From Auricularia sp. M13 (taxonomy: Eukaryota > Basidiomycota > Agaricomycetes > Auriculariales > Auriculariaceae), in NCBI GenBank assembly GCA_037042915.1, contig CM073196.1, positions 4,216,001 through 4,280,000 of the forward strand: a DNA stretch of 64,000 bases. Reading direction: 5' to 3'. This document shows, piece after piece, positions 3,080 through 51,900 of the stretch (position 1 is the first letter of the stretch; each line of letters starts with the position of its first letter). The translations under genes were made by a program, and so were the position numbers. Below the pieces are notes generated by a model. It made no database searches. It had not been told where the DNA came from and saw nothing but the letters and a program-made list of their open reading frames with translations.

Positions 3080-4486
3080 CTAAACGAGGCAAATGTTCAT
3101 AAGGATAAGTACGATAGAAAGCACTGCGCTTGTTGGCGGTATCTGTATCGACGCCGCTGCGCCGGCACCAATAACCGTGGGTATGGCTGTGGCTGCAACA
3201 AGCGTTCCGCTCGTGGTCGGGCCCGAGTTCACCGGCGTCGAGTCCGCTGCGCCGACCACTGCAGATGTTACGGCGCCTAGAGCGGACGTAGCTGTCGCAG
3301 CGGCCACAGTAGACACGAAGATATCTGTCTGAGCACCTGGATAAAATGCGTCAATCAGATGTGGATGCGAGCGGATGGAAAGCACGCACCAGGGCTGAAT
3401 CCGACTTTGGAGTTATAACCCGGGCTGGGGAATTGGCCGTCTTTCTGAAGACCGGGCGGGATCGCTATGTTGTTTCCCGACGCCTGATATACGGCCAAGA
3501 GCTGTTTTGCTCCTTTCACGCAGGCCGACGGGTTGCTCTCACACCATACAGGCGGTTTCGGGGCCGAGACCGCCTTAGCTGTCTTTTGCGCATTCGTTAC
3601 TTGACAGCGGTACGCGGTCATGTACATATTTGACTTTGGAGAAGTCAGCAGAGAGAGAGAGCGTAAGGCCTGGGTGAAAGCTCACCTGGCCGCAATGGTT
3701 CGGTACCCAGCCCCATGCGCAGAGGCAGCCTCCCGTCGGACACGCGGGAAGATTCGGTACTGAGTACGTCGCGACTCGACGATAGGGCGTACTAGAACGA
3801 CGACCGAGCATGTCATGGTCAGGAACTCGCGGCTGAGAACTGTCGCTCACTTGGGTAATATGCTGAAGACGGTGAAGTCTGCCAGTGTGACTGCGTTGAT
3901 GTTTCCTTTACCCTTATATGAGATGGCGAACGCAGTGCCTGCGGCGTCACTCGGGCCGTGAGCATGGAGGTTGGGAGAACCCAGGCAGCCCGCAGAACTC
4001 AGCGGGAAGTTGGGGTCGGTTATATTCGTGCTCCAGTTGGCAGGGTGCACTTTGCCGTCGGGCCATGCAGTTGCCTTCGCGCCATTGAACGAGAGCGTTG
4101 TTACACCGCGGTTGCCCGCCAGCTCCACGGTAAATTTGCCATTTGCCGGGCTGTTATATCGGTGAGTATACGACGGCGCTCGTGATAATGGGATAATTGA
4201 TCAAGACGACGTACATGTTGAGATATTCGCCAGCCGGCGGTGGATACGATCTGCACTTTCCGTGCATAAACCAGTCGTTTGTCGCGAGGTTCCAGAGCGG
4301 AGAGACTGGCTCGAACGCATTCGGCATGTCCGCCGTAGCCAAACCCTGCGATATCTCAGAACCAGGTTGATACTTTCGGCGTGAACGGAGACAAACGTTT
4401 TTGCAGTACATCCCCTTGGACCAGGCAGTAACGTGCGCATGCGCGCAATGCGAGGCACCAGCGAGGATAGCGAGTGTAGCGAACAT
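3080..4486 (-). CDS. AA14-like LPMO 1, copper brace intact, GPI-type tail
   Basis: A secreted protein of the AA14 family of copper lytic polysaccharide monooxygenases; characterised members cleave xylan oxidatively. Six exons: 4486-4397, 4345-4215, 4150-3851, 3791-3686, 3633-3390 and 3336-3080, giving 375 residues in unbroken phase. A 17-residue signal peptide ends AHA, so the mature protein starts with the essential histidine ([13 protein letters not shown]). The second brace histidine is in SPNLHAHG (about mature residue 119) and the axial tyrosine in [10 protein letters not shown]. Other family marks are [18 protein letters not shown] and GAQTDIF. After the catalytic domain comes a Ser/Thr/Ala-rich linker and a C-terminal hydrophobic stretch ([16 protein letters not shown]), typical of a GPI-anchor signal and absent from the three paralogues. 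Exons 2, 4 and 5 have the same lengths (131, 106, 244 nt) as in the paralogues. Confidence 0.88.
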
Positions 4487-12806: not shown

Positions 12807-14276
12807 CTAATGCTGGCGCGAGAAACCCACCCTCCGATGATGGTGGTGCTCGTGCTCCTCTTCGAGGCTGCCGCGCCGCCGACGCGACGTCTTGGCCGCC
12901 GCTGTGGCGCTCGAACCGGCGGCTGCGGTGATGGTGACCGTCTTCGTGACGGTCGCGGGCGCGAAGGCCGTCGGGCAGCCCTGATAGCTCGTCGCGGTGG
13001 CGATCGCGGTCGTCGTGACGAAGACCTTGCTGGCGCACGTAGATCCTGGCGTGTACGCCGTCGACGTCGTCGCGCCGCCACCCGGCGCAAGGAAGATGTC
13101 CGTTTGCGCGCCTGCTCATTATCAGTCTTTACCCTGCAGATTACCGAGAAGCGCGCGCACCGGGCTTGAACCCCATCTTCATGTTGTATCCCGGGCTGGG
13201 GAACGAGTTGTCCTTCTGCAGCCCGCCGGGGCTGACGAAGTTATTGCCCTCCGCCTGGAAGGCAATCGTCATCTGCTTGGGCCCCGCCAAACAGCGATCT
13301 GGGTCGCTCTCGCACCACACCGCGGGCTGTGGCTTGCCCACGGCGGGCGCGTTGGGGTCAGCGCCAGTGACCTGGCAGCGGAAGGCCAGCTGGTACATGT
13401 TATCCTGAGCGCTCAGGCTGGTGAGTGGACTGTATAATCGGCGAGGCGCGCGCTAGGGGGCTCACCTGCCCACAGTGATTCGGAATCCACGCCCACGCGC
13501 AGAGGCAGCCACCGGCCGGGCATGCAGGCAGGTTGGGCACCTGATACGTTGCGAGGCGCTTCCATGGCGAACTGGTCATCGTGCGCGCGATCAGTCAAAG
13601 TCACAGCGGCGGTGGCGCAGGGTCCCTGGATACTCACTTCGGAAGAATGCTGAAGACGGTGAAGTCGCTGGGCTGGACGGTGCTCATGTCGCCGTTGTAC
13701 GAGATGGCGAAGGCCGTGCCCGCGGTGTCGGCCTCAGCCTTCGCGTGGATGTTCGGCGAGCCAATGCAGCCCGCGCTCGACGGCGGGAAGTTGGGGTCGG
13801 ACGTCGCCGTGTAGGGCTCGGTGTGGTTCTGCCCATCAGGCCAGTCTGTCGCCTTCAGCCCGTTGTATGACAGCGTCGTGAACACGCGGTTCGCCGCGAT
13901 CTCGACAGTGAAGTTGCCGTTCGCTGGGCTGATTGAAATTCGTCAGGGCTCCGCGAGAGGGACGGGCGGGTAATTAGGCGCACATTTTCAGATACTCGCC
14001 GTCGGGAGGGGGGTACTGTCGACATGGCCCGTGCAGGAACCAGTCGTTCTGGGACATGTTCCAGAGCGGTGTGATGGGATAGTCGACGCCTTGCTGGTCG
14101 GTGTTGCTCAACCCCTGCGACGCGAATACAAGGGTGAGCACGCGAGGCTGAAATCGGCCGAAGAAATGCTTTCTCACGTTCTTGCAGTACATGCCTTTCG
14201 TCCATGGTGCAAGATGGGCGTGCACGGTCACTGAGAGAGTCGCGATGAGGAGTGCTGCTCGCGGAAGGGTGATCAT
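12807..14276 (-). CDS. AA14-like LPMO 2, copper brace intact
   Basis: A secreted AA14-type copper monooxygenase relative of 391 residues. Exons: 14276-14178, 14114-13984, 13928-13638, 13571-13466, 13404-13161 and 13111-12807. The signal peptide ends TVHA and the mature chain starts [13 protein letters not shown]. The second brace histidine is in SPNIHAKA (about mature residue 118) and the axial tyrosine in [10 protein letters not shown]. Conserved family segments are [26 protein letters not shown] and GAQTDIF. The C-terminal tail after the catalytic domain is Ala/Thr-rich and ends in a basic, His-rich stretch ([16 protein letters not shown]), with no GPI signal. Exon lengths 131, 106 and 244 nt match the paralogues exactly, which supports the model. 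It converges with S1. Confidence 0.9.
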
Positions 14277-19099: not shown

Positions 19100-20652
19100 T
19101 CAGAAGATCGACGACGCGTGCCACCAGCCCCGCTGGTGCGCGTTGGCATGCCCGTGGTTCCTGCGGATAGTCTCATGCGCAGGCTCGCTGTGCCAACGCC
19201 GACGCCTCTGCTGGGTCTCAGAATCTTCCGCATCCCCAGTCGCAGTCGGGGTCGCAGCTGGAGTAATCTCAGCTGGAGTAACAGTGACAGTTATGGTAGT
19301 GGTCATCGTGAAGTCGTCGTCCGATGGGCATTCCGGGTACGCGGTCGCCGTAGCCATGGCCGTAGAAGTGACGACGACAGATGCGGCGCACGTTGAGTCC
19401 TCCATGTAGGCTGTGCTCGTGCTGTCCGGATGTTCCTTGACAAAAATGTCGGTCTGGGCGCCTGCCAAAGCCCGACAGTGAAGTCAGAACATGTGACTAC
19501 GGGAGAATAGATGAACACAACGCACCAGGCCTGAAACCCATCTTCATGTTGTAGCCGGGGCTGGGGAACGAGTTGTCCTTCTGCAGCCCGCCGGGATTAA
19601 CGAAGTTGTTGCCCTCGGCCTGGAACGCGATCGTCATCTGCTTCGGGCCCGCGACGCAGTTGTCCTCGTCGTCCTCGCACCATGCCGCGGGCTGCGGGGT
19701 ACCCACAGCAGGCGCAGAGGGATCAGCGCCGGTGACCTGGCAACGGTATGCGTTCTGGTACATGTTATCCTGTGTGGCGCATGAGCCCCGAGCAATCTAC
19801 TTTTCCAGAAGAAGGAGAACTCGCCTGGCCACAGTGGTTCGGGATCCAGGCCCAGGCACACAGGCATCCGCCCGTGGGGCACGCGGGCAGGTTCGGCACG
19901 TTGTAGGTCGCGAGACGCTTGTAGGGCGTGCTGTTGGGTGGGTGGCGCAGTGTCAGCAGCAGTGCCACCGGCAATCCAGTAATCTTTACGTCACGACGGA
20001 CTCACTTGGGCGCGACGCTGAACACGGTGAAGTCGGCGAGTTTGACCGCGTTGATGTCGTTCTTGTACGCGATGGCGAACGCCGTTCCCGCGGCATCCGC
20101 CTCGCCCTGCGCGTGGATGTTCGGCGAGCTGAGGCAGCCTGCGGACGTCGGCGGATACTTGGCGTCCGTCATGTTCGTCGACCAGCCGTCCGGGTGCGTG
20201 AGGCCGTCCGGCCAGTCGCTCGTCTTCAGGCCGTTGTACGAGAGCGTCGTCATAGCGCGGTTTGCAGAGAGCTCCACGGTGAATGCGCCATTCGCGGGTC
20301 TGACAGTCTCCCAGTTAGCACGGTTGCGACGCGGGAGTCGATGTGGTAGACTCACATCTTCAGGAACTCGCCATCCGGTGGCGGGAAGTTACGGCAGGCG
20401 CCATGGAGAAACCAGTCGCTGGTGGAGAGGTTCCACAGCGGGACGGCAGGGTATGCCGCGTTTGGTGTGTCTGTGTTGGAGTTCCCCTGCACGATCCCCT
20501 CTCAGTATCGCGGGCAGAGCCACAAGGGGGAAAGGCACACGCACGTTTTTGCAGTACATCCCCTTAGTCCAAGCAACCAGCTGGCCGCGAGCACTTCCGG
20601 AGAGGCAGGCGAGGAGGAGAGCGTTCAAGCTGAGAGTGAGAGTGAGCTGCAT
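19100..20652 (-). CDS. AA14-like protein 3, N-terminal brace histidine replaced by Gln
   Basis: Same fold family and exon plan as AA14-like genes 1 and 2: exons 20652-20545, 20486-20356, 20299-20006, 19930-19825, 19769-19526 and 19461-19100, 414 residues. The signal peptide (LLLACLSGSARG) is followed by [13 protein letters not shown], so the residue that should be the first copper ligand is glutamine. The second brace histidine (SPNIHAQG) and axial tyrosine (DNMYQNAYRC) remain. [20 protein letters not shown] and GAQTDIF are conserved. The C-terminal tail is Thr-rich and ends with a basic/His segment. Intron 4 uses a GC donor (CAG|GCGAGT). It is transcribed divergently from gene 4. Cleavage one residue earlier or later would still not expose a histidine, as none is nearby. 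Confidence 0.88.
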
Positions 20653-21195
20653 GGTTGGGGAGTGGGGGAAGCGTGAGTTCTTTCGACGCTCGACGCGCGC
20701 CGTTTTCATGCCAGCGCGTCGACTGAACTAGAACGGTCGAAAACGTTATTCGGGGATACACCTGCTGCTCTGGTAGGTGTAAATCCGTCGGTCCGCGCGA
20801 TCAGCTGCTCCTGCATCGTTCGAGGCTTCCTTCGCGAAGTCGCTTCATGAATATTGGATGCCGCTGCCAGTAGCGCAAACACCCGTTGTCATGGGAAATT
20901 TGCGCCCCCGATTGCTGGTACATTGCTGTCAGTCGTGGCCGGTCAGGTGGCGAATGCGATGCGCGGAGAAGTAGAAGCGGCGTCAATGTCCTCATGATCA
21001 GGGCTTGAAGTCAATCGGAGTCTCGCCCGTGCCTGCATCCCGATCAGCGCAGATCCCGCACACCGATTCACGCACTGTCGACGCGGCCCGCTGTCACTCC
21101 CGTCCGGGTTGCGAAGTATCTGGGCCGTCAGCGAATGCCTTATGAGCCGCACCCCACTTCGGCTTCGGCATACGTCGCCATTCGCCCATCCTCAC
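20653..21195. promoter_or_regulatory. Shared divergent promoter of AA14-like genes 3 and 4
   Basis: The two start codons are 543 bp apart and the genes run in opposite directions, so the two copper-site-altered paralogues probably share control elements. No specific operator was recognised. Confidence 0.45.
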
Positions 21196-22505
21196 ATGTC
21201 CGTTCGCAAGAGTCTCGTTGTCGCCGCTGCGCTCGCCTACGGCACTAATGCCCAAGTCGTCGCCTGGACGAAGGGCATGTTCTGCAAAAATGTGAACCGT
21301 CTACTAGAACGCCCACGACGGCGAGTCGCTCACCAGGGTGCAGGGCAACAGCGCTACAGATCAGCCAAACGCTGCCTACCCTGTAGGAGCATTGGTCGGC
21401 CTTGCCACCAACGACTGGTTCCTGCACGGAGACTGCCGCAACTATCCGCCCGCAGCGAATGAGTTCCTCAGTGTGTGAGTGCTGATTTTGCATCCTATCT
21501 TGGCTCCCACGCTGACATTACGTTGCAGGCCTGCCAATGGGAGCTTCACAGCGGAGCTCGCGTCGAACCGCGCGTTCACGACGCTGTCGTACAACGGCCA
21601 GAAGGCGACCGACTGGCCGGACGGCAAGACCCACCCGGCAAATTGGTCGACCAACCTGACGGACGCGCTCTATCCGCCGACTTCGGCGGGCTGTCTGAGC
21701 TCGCCAATGATTCGCGCGAAGGGCTCAGTCGACGCGCAGGGCACCGCGTTTGCCATTTCGTACAGCAACGATATCACCACCGCCAAGTTGAGCGACTTCG
21801 TCGTGTTCACCGTGGCCGCAAAGTGAGTCGCGGCTCATCTGAAAGCGCTCAGATTATCTGATTCGGGATCCTCGCAATGCGCAGCACGCCCTACAAGCGC
21901 CTGGTCACGTACCAAGTCCCGGACCTGCCAGCGTGCCCGACGGGCGGATGCCTGTGCGCCTGGGCCTGGGTGCCCAACCACTGCGGCCAGGTGAGGCGTC
22001 CTGGCGTCCCCTTCGCGACGTGCGGCTGACATGTCGAGACAGGATGCCATCTTCATGAACGCGTACCGCTGTCAAGTTACAGGCGCCTCGTCGTCGGCCC
22101 GCGCACTAGCCCCCGCGCAGGCCCCAGTATGGTGCGAGTCCGACCAGGACAAGTGCGTGTCGGGCGCGAAGCAGATGGCCGTGGTCTGGCAGAAGGACGG
22201 CAACAATGTCGTGCTCCCTGGAGGCTTGCAGAAAGACAACACGCGCCCGGCGCCTGGATATAACTCGAAGCTCGGATTCACAGCAGGCAAGTCGCGCGAT
22301 AAGCCGTTGTCTTTATCAGACTGCTAATATGAACCGGATGTCGATAGGAGCCCAGACTGATATCTTTGTCGCCACTGCGTCTACACCGGCGCCCACCTGC
22401 GCGCCGGCGCCAACGACGACGAGCACAGTGACATCCACGACCACTATCACCATAGGATATGCGACCTCGACCAGCCTGACGCGCCGCTCCGGCGGGGAGC
22501 TATGA
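21196..22505 (+). CDS. AA14-like protein 4, all three copper-site positions substituted
   Basis: A 342-residue secreted AA14-family protein with six exons: 21196-21291, 21344-21474, 21529-21822, 21885-21990, 22043-22286 and 22348-22505. The start gives a clean signal peptide ([14 protein letters not shown]); the mature chain starts [13 protein letters not shown]. The position of the second brace histidine is arginine (SPMIRAKG, about mature residue 119) and that of the axial tyrosine is phenylalanine ([10 protein letters not shown]). All framework features stay: [25 protein letters not shown] and GAQTDIF, with exon lengths 131, 106 and 244 nt. The frame is intact and phases match, so this is not a simple pseudogene. 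Intron 5 uses a GC donor (CAG|GCAAGT). The tail is short and Thr-rich. Copper-dependent oxidation seems impossible; a binding or structural role is inference. Confidence 0.88.
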
Positions 22506-48556: not shown

Positions 48557-48919
48557 TGGGATGATGGTAGAGGCGATGGAGCGGGGCGACGAGCGGTCGA
48601 CAGAGACGAGAACACAACATGGCGGTTGGGTTAAAAGGTGCGGATCGGAGCCGGAATTCACCGACGTCAAACCCGTAACACGGGGCAACCGCAGACCTCC
48701 GCTGAACTCTCTACACCAATATTACTGTCTCAAGAATAATTGCAGGCACTGAGACTCTTGAGTTGAGCCGTGGGATATTCACCTTGATCTCAGATCCTTT
48801 ATTGAGGTACTACTCGCTTCCGAGCGCACTGGAGCGGCATTGGCGATCGAGCAGCACTTGTCCGCTCCGGCCTTGCGGTATTTCGTGACTTGGAGCATTT
48901 CCACACACACTCCTCCGCG
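48557..48919. other. Divergent spacer between the DUF6532-like gene and the transposase
   Basis: 363 bp. It probably includes the promoters of both genes and possibly the left end of the transposon, but no terminal inverted repeat could be paired with a right end. Confidence 0.35.
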
Positions 48920-51900
48920 ATGACTGGCCGCCATGGACGTGCTCCAATTGACTGCGGCATCTGTGGACACCGCTGTCTTACTAGCAGCGGCCTGACGCGC
49001 CACATTCAGCAAACCGTGGAGTGCAGGCGCAAGCTTGCCAAGAAGAACCGCTCTTTGGTTGCACTTGCACGTGCGACTGCAGCAGAACAGCCTCATAGCG
49101 ACCTTGAGGATGACCCGCTGCAAGATGGAGACCACCTCAACAGGCTTTATGGCACCCCGCAGCCTGAGGCCGCGTTCGACGTGGAGCTTGACGACTCCCC
49201 TCGCGGGGAACCATCTACTGTTACATCGCCAGAGTCACCACCTCCGCCGCCGCCGCTGCCGCCACCGAATCCTCGGAGGACGCTTGTTGAAGAGATTCCC
49301 GACGACGAAGATCCTTCGTGCCGTGTGGACGAGATCCCAGGCGCTGCTGAAGTTCTGTTCACCATGCTCGAGTCCCGCATATCCTCCGACTTCGCCGCAC
49401 TGCATTCCGGTGATGCTGGCGCATGGGGCCCTTTCCCATCACAGCAGGACTGGGAGTTTGCTAAGTGGTCCAAGACTGAAGCGGTGTCCGGCGGCTCCGT
49501 CGACAGACTGTTGAACCTTGCGTTCATGCAGATCCAGCTCGAGACGAAGTCGATGCGCGACATCAATCGCCGTGTTGACCAGCTTCCATCGCCAGCCCAC
49601 TTTCAGCACTCCGAAATCAAGGTCAGCACGTCCAAGAACACGTTCGACTTGTACTGGCGCAACCCGCTGGAGCTGATCGCCGACTTGCTGGCCGACCCGA
49701 CGTTTGCGGACCATCTCATCCTCTCTGCTGGCAAGCGATATACCAACGCCGACGGAACAACCCGCCTTTACAGCGAACTGCCATCGGGAGATTGGATGTA
49801 CGAGACGCAGGTGCGCACACCCAGTTATTTGCCTCGATATCTCTGACCAAGCACACAGTTGCTGCTTCCTGACGGCGCAACGATGATCCCAATCATCCTC
49901 AGCTCAGACAAGACGGAGCTTACCTCCTTCACGGGCAAGCACTCTTGCTACCCTGTCTACCTTACGATTGGGAACATTGAGAAACACATTCGCCGACAGC
50001 CGGGCATGCGCGCGCAACGCTTACTTGCTTATCTACCAACGGGCAAGGTGGACCGAAGCACGATGTCCGACGCAAAGGCACGGAAGCTGCGTGCCCACCT
50101 GTTCCACCACTGCATGCAGATCGTGTGCGAGCCGCTCTTTGGTCCGGCGGCCGACGGCATCAGACTTGCTGACTCTCGCGGCGACGTCCGCAGCTGCCAC
50201 CCAATCCTCGCAGCCTACGTCGCGGATTACCCCGAGCAGTGCTTGGTCACCTGCGTGCGCTATGGACAAGCCTGCCCTCGCTGTGACATGCTGGAGGGCG
50301 GATTCGGGCTGGACGAGTGCGGCGAGCTGCGACATCAGGAGGACACGTTGCGAACGATTCGGACAGCGGCCGAGTGCAGCGGCAAGCACAAGGCAGAGAT
50401 CCTCGACGGCGCTGGGCTCAACGACGTCCCCAACCCTTTCTGGGCGGACTGGCCGCACGCAAACATTCACTGCGCCATTACTTCGGACGTCCTGCATCAA
50501 CTCATCCAGGGCGTCGGGAAGCACCTCGTCGAGTGGCTGACGGAGCTTGCTCCTGCTCGCGAGCTGGACGCACGCTTCAGGCGGCTCCCACTTGCCCAGG
50601 GACTCCGGCATTTCAGCGACGGAATCACAAAGCTCTCGAACGTGTCAGGTGCCGAGCATAAGGCGATGTACGCGCAGCTCTTGGGCTGTGTACACGGCAT
50701 CGTTCCCAACGACGCCGTCCGAGCCGCAACGGCGCTGTTGGACTTCCTCTACATCGCGCAGTTCGAGTGCCACTCGGACAACACCCTGGACGATCTGAAG
50801 GCCGCCCTGTCTGAGTTCCACCGTTACAAGGATGTCTTCATCAAGCACGGTGTCCGTGCAGGTCAGTACATCTTCCGTCCGACTGCCGATACTGACGCTG
50901 GATTCTAGACTTCAATCTACCCAAGCTGCATGCTCTCCAGCACTACGCCGAGTCGATCCGCTTGTTCGGCACCGTCGATAACTATAATACCGAAGCGACT
51001 GAACGGTTGCACATCGACCTTGCGAAGCACGCGTTCAAGGCGACAAACAAGCGCAACTTCGTCGCGCAGATGTGCCGCTGGCTCGAGCGTCGCGAGGCTG
51101 TCTTCTGGTTCGCTACCCACCTGGCGTGGAAGGAGGGCAAGACATTCGATGCACGACTCCGCAAGCCACGACGTCAGACAGGTCCAGCCCCGGTCGTTCT
51201 TGCAAAGCGACCCCACCGCCAACGTGTGTACATCGACGAGTTACAGCCGGAGCACGGTATAGAAGACTTCCGCGCTGTCCTCGGCGAGTTCTTGCTCAAA
51301 CATCACGAGGTCCCGACATTTCGCGGATATGCGTCTTTGCTCCCTGCGCCAATTGCATCTGCTCTTGCCCAGCTCCCTTCGGTGCGCGTCTGGCGGCATG
51401 TCAAGTTCTACACCCCGGACACTCAGACTAAGGCCGCACCCGACATTCTGAATATGGCGTACGCATCAACAACCCGGCGACGCTTTGATGCTGTGTTGGT
51501 TCACACGGGGGGAGGAGAGGTTGCCGGCGTCGGTGGCCTGAACGGTATGTACTGTCCTGCAGCATTATTGCTCCTCGACTCACGAGTGCATGTAGACATT
51601 CGGGTTGGCCGTCTTCGCGCGATTTTCACTGTGCCCGAGCTGCACCAAGACGCACTCTTTGGTGCCGACGTCCCTGGTCATCTTGCCTATGTCGACTGGT
51701 ACAGCCCGATTCCAGCGCAGCCTAACGGCATCAATGGCATGTTCTCCTTGAGCCGCGCCTATCGCCCTAATGGAAAACCCGACGCCGAAATCGTTCACGT
51801 TGTGGACATTCGGCGTGCTTGTCAGCTGTTCCCGAAGTTTGGCAAAGACCCGGTCCCGCGTGAGCTCACCGCCCAGACCATCATGGACGCATATGAGGAT

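Follow-up and report, generated by a model that had tools for sequence, protein, structure and literature searches.

An intact AA14-like gene of Auricularia sp. M13 in which all three copper-site residues are replaced

The window analysed here is a stretch of 64,000 nt of Auricularia sp. M13 (contig CM073196.1 of assembly GCA_037042915.1, bases 4216001-4280000). We searched the whole genome (52 Mb in 14 contigs) with the Pfam family PF22810 (LPMO_AA14) and, scoring the best candidates, found 26 exon matches at at least 12 loci. Four of these loci lie in the window (W4k, W13k, W20k, and W21k), and the last two of them stand head to head. The features are listed below in window coordinates.

3080-4486, minus strand: W4k, an AA14 paralogue with complete His1, His99, and Tyr176
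12807-14276, minus strand: W13k, an AA14 paralogue with complete His1, His99, and Tyr176
About 19100-20652, minus strand: W20k, an AA14 paralogue with Gln1 and with His99 and Tyr176 kept; where its C-terminal tail ends is uncertain
20653-21195, no strand: the intergenic stretch of 543 bp between W20k and W21k, possibly a shared promoter
21196-22505, plus strand: W21k, an AA14-like gene of six exons and 342 aa, with Gln1, Arg119, and Phe194 for His1, His99, and Tyr176
21196-21291, 21344-21474, and 21529-21822, plus strand: exons 1-3 of W21k (splice-aware model)
21885-21990, 22043-22286, and 22348-22505, plus strand: exons 4-6 of W21k (splice-aware model)
21292-21343, plus strand: intron 1 of W21k, 52 bp, GT-AG
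21475-21528, plus strand: intron 2 of W21k, 54 bp, GT-AG
21823-21884, plus strand: intron 3 of W21k, 62 bp, GT-AG
21991-22042, plus strand: intron 4 of W21k, 52 bp, GT-AG
22287-22347, plus strand: intron 5 of W21k, 61 bp, GC-AG with the donor GCAAGT
21196-21252, plus strand: signal peptide of W21k (19 residues), placed by homology, as the paralogues end in Ala before His1
21253-21255, plus strand: Gln1 codon CAA of W21k at the His1 position, from codon comparison with the paralogues
21713-21715, plus strand: Arg119 codon CGC of W21k at the His99 position, within Ser-Pro-Met-Ile-Arg, from the 5NO7 alignment
22052-22054, plus strand: Phe194 codon TTC of W21k at the Tyr176 position, within Asp-Ala-Ile-Phe-Met, from the 5NO7 alignment

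Judged from its sequence, W21k is an intact gene for a secreted-looking AA14-type protein. Gene models were made with a splice-aware aligner written for this analysis. The W21k model has 1029 coding nucleotides in six exons, with no internal stops and no frameshifts, in agreement with the first-pass annotation, which had described the frame as kept. The match to PF22810 scores 207.4 bits against a curated cut-off of 27 and spans residues 10-329 of the 342, that is, the whole catalytic domain. The sole solved sequence matching W21k up to an E-value of 0.1 was 5NO7, the AA14 LPMO PcAA14B (phmmer, E = 2.3e-29). The two are 36.7% identical over 248 columns, and seven of the ten W21k cysteines occupy the same columns in 5NO7. 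All ten are shared with the other nine sequences from this genome in our alignment, so the earlier remark that the cysteines are kept holds. Also like the AA14 LPMOs, W21k has a signal-peptide-like N-terminus and a Ser/Thr-rich tail after the domain. An in-frame ATG lies upstream of the gene at 21142; the stretch it would add contains three His, all of them before the signal peptide.

The copper site of W21k differs from that of 5NO7 at every position considered. The first-pass annotation had read the mature start QVVAWTKG as Gln in place of His1, SPMIRAKG as Arg in place of the second His, and DAIFMNAY as Phe in place of the axial Tyr, and the alignment with 5NO7 bears out all three readings. 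In the phmmer alignment, Trp5 of W21k stands opposite Trp5, Arg119 opposite His99, and Phe194 opposite Tyr176. As 5NO7 starts with HIAFW and the two Trp5 residues are aligned, Gln1 stands at His1, with the cleavage site placed from paralogue homology alone. Hence, the N-terminal His, the second brace His, and the axial Tyr of AA14 are all missing from W21k. The complete paralogues have CAC or CAT at each of the two His positions and TAC at the Tyr position, and the W21k codon is one base off at each. Beside either internal ligand position of W21k, no new His or Cys was seen in the alignment of 10 loci and 5NO7.

Among the 12 loci found, a lower bound, residue 1 is His in ten and Gln in two (W21k and W20k), while the His99 position holds His in 11 and Arg in W21k. 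The Tyr176 position could be read in 11 of the at least 12 loci and is Tyr in ten and Phe in W21k; the remaining locus, L009, has no recognisable last exons.

It is highly improbable that the replacements reflect an artefact of the gene model or the assembly, the real protein starting with His or the three codons being sequencing errors. The W21k model does need one GC-AG intron near its 3' end, and there is an in-frame ATG upstream. Against these points, Gln1 shares an uninterrupted exon with the conserved WTKGM motif, and W20k has Gln1 too, by another codon (CAG rather than the CAA of W21k). It is improbable that single-base errors arose independently at precisely these three codons. Moreover, no His was found before residue 60 of the W21k precursor, counted from the ATG at 21196, so no shifted signal cleavage would expose one. 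We rejected the artefact explanation, as no alternative His-bearing N-terminus was found for W21k.

The alignment, the tree, and the column counts comprise 10 of the 12 loci together with 5NO7; L009 was left out for its unreadable last exons and L015 for a frameshift. Forty-seven columns are invariant in the ten other sequences, and W21k differs at four of them, the positions of Pro29, Gly52, His99, and Tyr176. The chance of both ligands being among the four is 0.0056. As controls, we counted unique changes at otherwise invariant columns in the paralogues: there were none in 43 columns for each of the five closest paralogues, 1/44 for L016, 3/46 each for L013 and L014, and 4/47 for the distant paralogue L012. 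Given the value for L012, the number of changes in W21k is not unusual; the choice of columns is.

The residues common to the five closest paralogues show a similar concentration. W21k has changed at 24 of 146 such columns, including all five that lie no more than two residues from either internal ligand (p = 8e-5 in a test chosen post hoc, once the changes were known). These five changes are Asn117Met, His119Arg, Asn192Ala, Met193Ile, and Tyr194Phe. With the ligands themselves removed, all three remaining columns are changed (p = 0.003). Widening the distance to three residues gives 5/7 (p = 0.0014), or 3/5 without the ligands (p = 0.026), and widening it to four gives 5/8 (p = 0.003), or 3/6 without the ligands (p = 0.046).

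Residues toward the N-terminal loop are altered in W21k as well, namely Pro29, Trp31, Asn32, Pro50, and Gly52. Position 31 is Val in W21k and Trp in the five closest paralogues. By comparison with LPMO structures, this loop probably lies on the substrate side. Since Trp31 is lost and the conserved Pro29, Pro50, and Gly52 are changed, W21k probably does not simply bind the old substrate. As far as the alignment can tell, the old copper site of W21k is rebuilt or released, with the scaffold retained. The first-pass annotation had proposed an LPMO fold re-used as a secreted non-copper protein, perhaps for binding polysaccharide. The re-use part is consistent with the intact gene, the signs of constraint described below, and the changes centred on the copper site, while binding of the former substrate is disfavoured by the loop changes.

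Several observations are signs that W21k evolves under constraint. Exons 2-5 are equal in length in W21k and W20k (131, 294, 106, and 244 nt), in line with the earlier statement that exon lengths are kept, whereas all five introns are unequal. The aligned intron bases of the two genes agree at 167 of 253 positions (66%), compared with 62% on average when the introns are shuffled. GC content at third codon positions is 0.788 in W21k (0.65 to 0.84 in the others) and 0.562 in its introns, so the third positions have not drifted to the background. In a codon model of 6 of the 12 loci (277 codons, two-part tree), dN/dS was 0.098 for the branch of W21k and 0.025 for all others; the W21k value is a branch average and includes the period preceding the ligand loss. 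A value of 1 was rejected on this branch (2dlnL = 9.6, p = 0.0019). The profile kept values from 0.02 to 0.3 inside the 95% limit and placed 0.01 and 0.4 outside; in the same model, dS exceeded 2 on 9 of the 18 fitted branches. With a single tree, the estimate was 0.081 (1 rejected, p = 0.001), and with the three ligand codons removed it was 0.096. For the W4k branch, the same codon test did not reject dN/dS = 1 (2dlnL = 0.73).

The W21k ratio is some four times that of the background branches, although equality of the two was not rejected (p = 0.077), and the rate is asymmetric, with 54 sites changed in W21k versus 14 in W20k. Such raised values would also be expected if W21k had recently become non-functional, having lost its copper ligands first and its frame being as yet unbroken. 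To see how long a frame may stay open, consider a neutral simulation of 2000 runs that scored stops alone, so that indels and splice sites would lower its stop-free shares. With 0.02 substitutions per site, 49.9% of the copies were stop-free, and with 0.05 the share was 19.4%, which is compatible with a very recent loss. It fell to 4.9% at 0.1 and 0.5% at 0.2. The open frame of W21k is therefore compatible with a loss of function only if that loss was rather recent. Furthermore, blind decay of the whole gene does not predict the non-random cluster of five changes at and beside the ligands, and exons 2-5 are unchanged in length relative to W20k. On these last two grounds we rejected whole-gene decay, and we regard a recent loss of function as unlikely.

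The head-to-head neighbour, W20k, is the other gene with Gln1. The match of its first 381 residues to PF22810 reaches 221.9 bits. An apparent frameshift in W20k was rejected, as reading the sequence revealed a GC-AG intron of 55 bp (intron 4), and beyond this intron the reading frame runs uninterrupted to a stop near 19100. The head-to-head genes each carry one GC-AG intron, though not at the same position (19770-19824, intron 4 of W20k; 22287-22347, intron 5 of W21k). The only Gln1 loci among the at least 12 found are thus these two adjacent genes.

Still, the whole-protein tree places W20k with W13k, with support (SH-aLRT/bootstrap, here and below) of 82/85 in one program run and 77.2/75 in another. 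Taken as a single history, this tree would require two changes to Gln1. We rejected it, as split trees suggest that W20k is a mosaic. In protein identity, W20k is closer to W21k at columns 0-33 and 66-165, and closer to W13k at columns 33-66 and 165-198. Over columns 198-297, taken as three successive segments, its identity to W13k is 79, 91, and 94%, compared with 55, 55, and 74% to W21k. The split trees were built without the column of residue 1. The N-terminal tree joins W21k and W20k with moderate support (91.9/84 for protein, 91.4/88 for DNA), and the C-terminal tree joins W20k and W13k (97.7/96 for protein, 96.7/95 for DNA). The simplest account of these sequences is that the 3' part of W20k and W13k has been shared through gene conversion. 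Gln1 then likely had a single origin in W21k and W20k. We say likely rather than proved because the shorter N-terminal pieces give weak support for W21k with W20k (piece n1: 77.4/54 for protein and 54.6/67 for DNA; piece n2: 42.8/62 and 67.6/57).

At the nucleotide level, the 3' parts of W13k (13156-13407) and W20k (19521-19772) are 83% identical over 252 nt with no gaps. A second similar stretch of these two genes, in exon 3, is 77% identical over 167 nt.

LPMO-family proteins outside AA14 offer several comparisons. LsAA9B of Lentinus similis, a Polyporales fungus, reportedly has Arg at position 1. In the available text of PMC10354095, it is described as a brace-less AA9 protein, and W21k resembles it in being an LPMO-family protein without the histidine brace. 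Unlike LsAA9B, W21k belongs to AA14 and has lost both His as well as the Tyr. On sequence, frame, and constraint, W21k combines an LPMO-family domain with an intact gene and no brace, the features of a brace-less LPMO-like protein. The X325/Bim1 proteins have an LPMO fold in a use other than glycan cleavage, as we propose for W21k, but X325 keeps the copper brace without catalysis (PMC7924993, in the part available), whereas both His are replaced in W21k.

CWR-1 of Neurospora crassa (AA11) is a copper-binding chitin PMO whose brace was lost by experiment only, unlike that of W21k. With both His mutated, its copper binding was almost eliminated and its chitin oxidation abolished, and allorecognition, its biological role, needed neither catalysis nor copper, as the accessible part of PMC9550227 reports. 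An LPMO domain can thus have a brace-independent role, which is the likeness to W21k. The same source states that some single-His variants of CWR-1 bound copper, much reduced without the first His, and that a Tyr to Phe change alone makes other LPMOs less active, leaving some activity (PMC9550227). Together with the His99 and Tyr176 kept in W20k, these data would favour a W21k that still binds metal or catalyses through a site rebuilt from other residues. We find this very unlikely, given that W21k lacks both His and the Tyr and has no new His or Cys beside the internal ligand positions. In addition, an N-terminal Gln is expected to cyclise to pyroglutamate. The loss of both His is decisive here, as single-His CWR-1 variants may bind copper and LPMOs with Phe for Tyr may stay active.

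Altogether, we consider it fairly probable that W21k encodes a pseudo-LPMO, that is, a brace-less, non-catalytic protein that has kept the fold and probably has a binding role. It is probably a former enzyme with another present use, as all three copper-holding or copper-capping residues are replaced and the remaining protein is kept. An AA14 gene would have been duplicated, His1 being replaced by Gln first, probably before W21k and W20k diverged. The second His and the axial Tyr would then have been lost on the W21k branch, with the signal peptide, all ten Cys, and the bulk of the domain sequence retained. Cyclisation of Gln1 to pyroglutamate would also remove the amine ligand. With both His and the axial Tyr missing and Gln1 expected to cyclise, the mature protein would hold no copper in a brace and would oxidise no glycans. 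Presumably, W21k folds and is secreted to the hyphal surface or to the substrate, where it may bind a cell-wall or plant polysaccharide or a partner protein. By analogy with recognition by CWR-1 with a mutated brace, non-catalytic binding seems its most likely use.

More tentatively, W21k and W20k could form a small brace-less AA14 subfamily in graded loss, the kept LPMO surface of these secreted proteins now serving in binding or recognition instead of oxidation. The cluster would then contain a natural stepwise series from the enzymes W4k and W13k through W20k to W21k. We think that this is possible but hold it with clearly less confidence than the pseudo-LPMO reading of W21k itself. Since W21k belongs to PF22810 by sequence yet lacks all three ligand features, the appropriate term for it is AA14-like pseudo-LPMO, not AA14 LPMO.

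Brace-less LPMO-family proteins are already known from AA9. We found no AA14 protein without a brace in the literature, as represented by titles and abstract openings with few subscription papers among them, and the AA14 example thus appears to be new. LPMO domains can serve roles besides cleavage (PMC9550227), and the activity of AA14 enzymes is itself disputed (PMC10885436, both as available in part). As both Gln1 genes exceed the Pfam cut-off, counts of AA14 oxidases by Pfam match alone can overcount enzymes. Within 20 kb, W21k, the half-dismantled W20k, and the complete W4k and W13k make a natural comparison set. Properties common to all four genes cannot depend on copper.

The AA14 set of this genome seems to be enlarged, as at least 12 loci compare with one to four AA14 genes per wood-decay genome (PMC10885436) and two to three in each of seven phlebioid genomes (PMC6540522), according to the accessible portions of these papers. 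Some of the loci are irregular. L009 (contig 1, 118500-122500) has His1 and the second His, and its modelled frame continues into a region lacking AA14 motifs, so the copy may be truncated. The model of L015 (contig 1, 7283000-7288000) requires a two-base frame shift near PPPAGEF, so that it is either a broken copy or contains an intron missed by the model. The modelled C-terminal tail of W13k (window 12810-12863) ends in a His-rich stretch of 18 residues which could bind metal. In addition, neighbouring open frames at 48806-50908 of the window encode a Plavaka transposase (PF18759), with scores of 58.8 and 272.4 bits.
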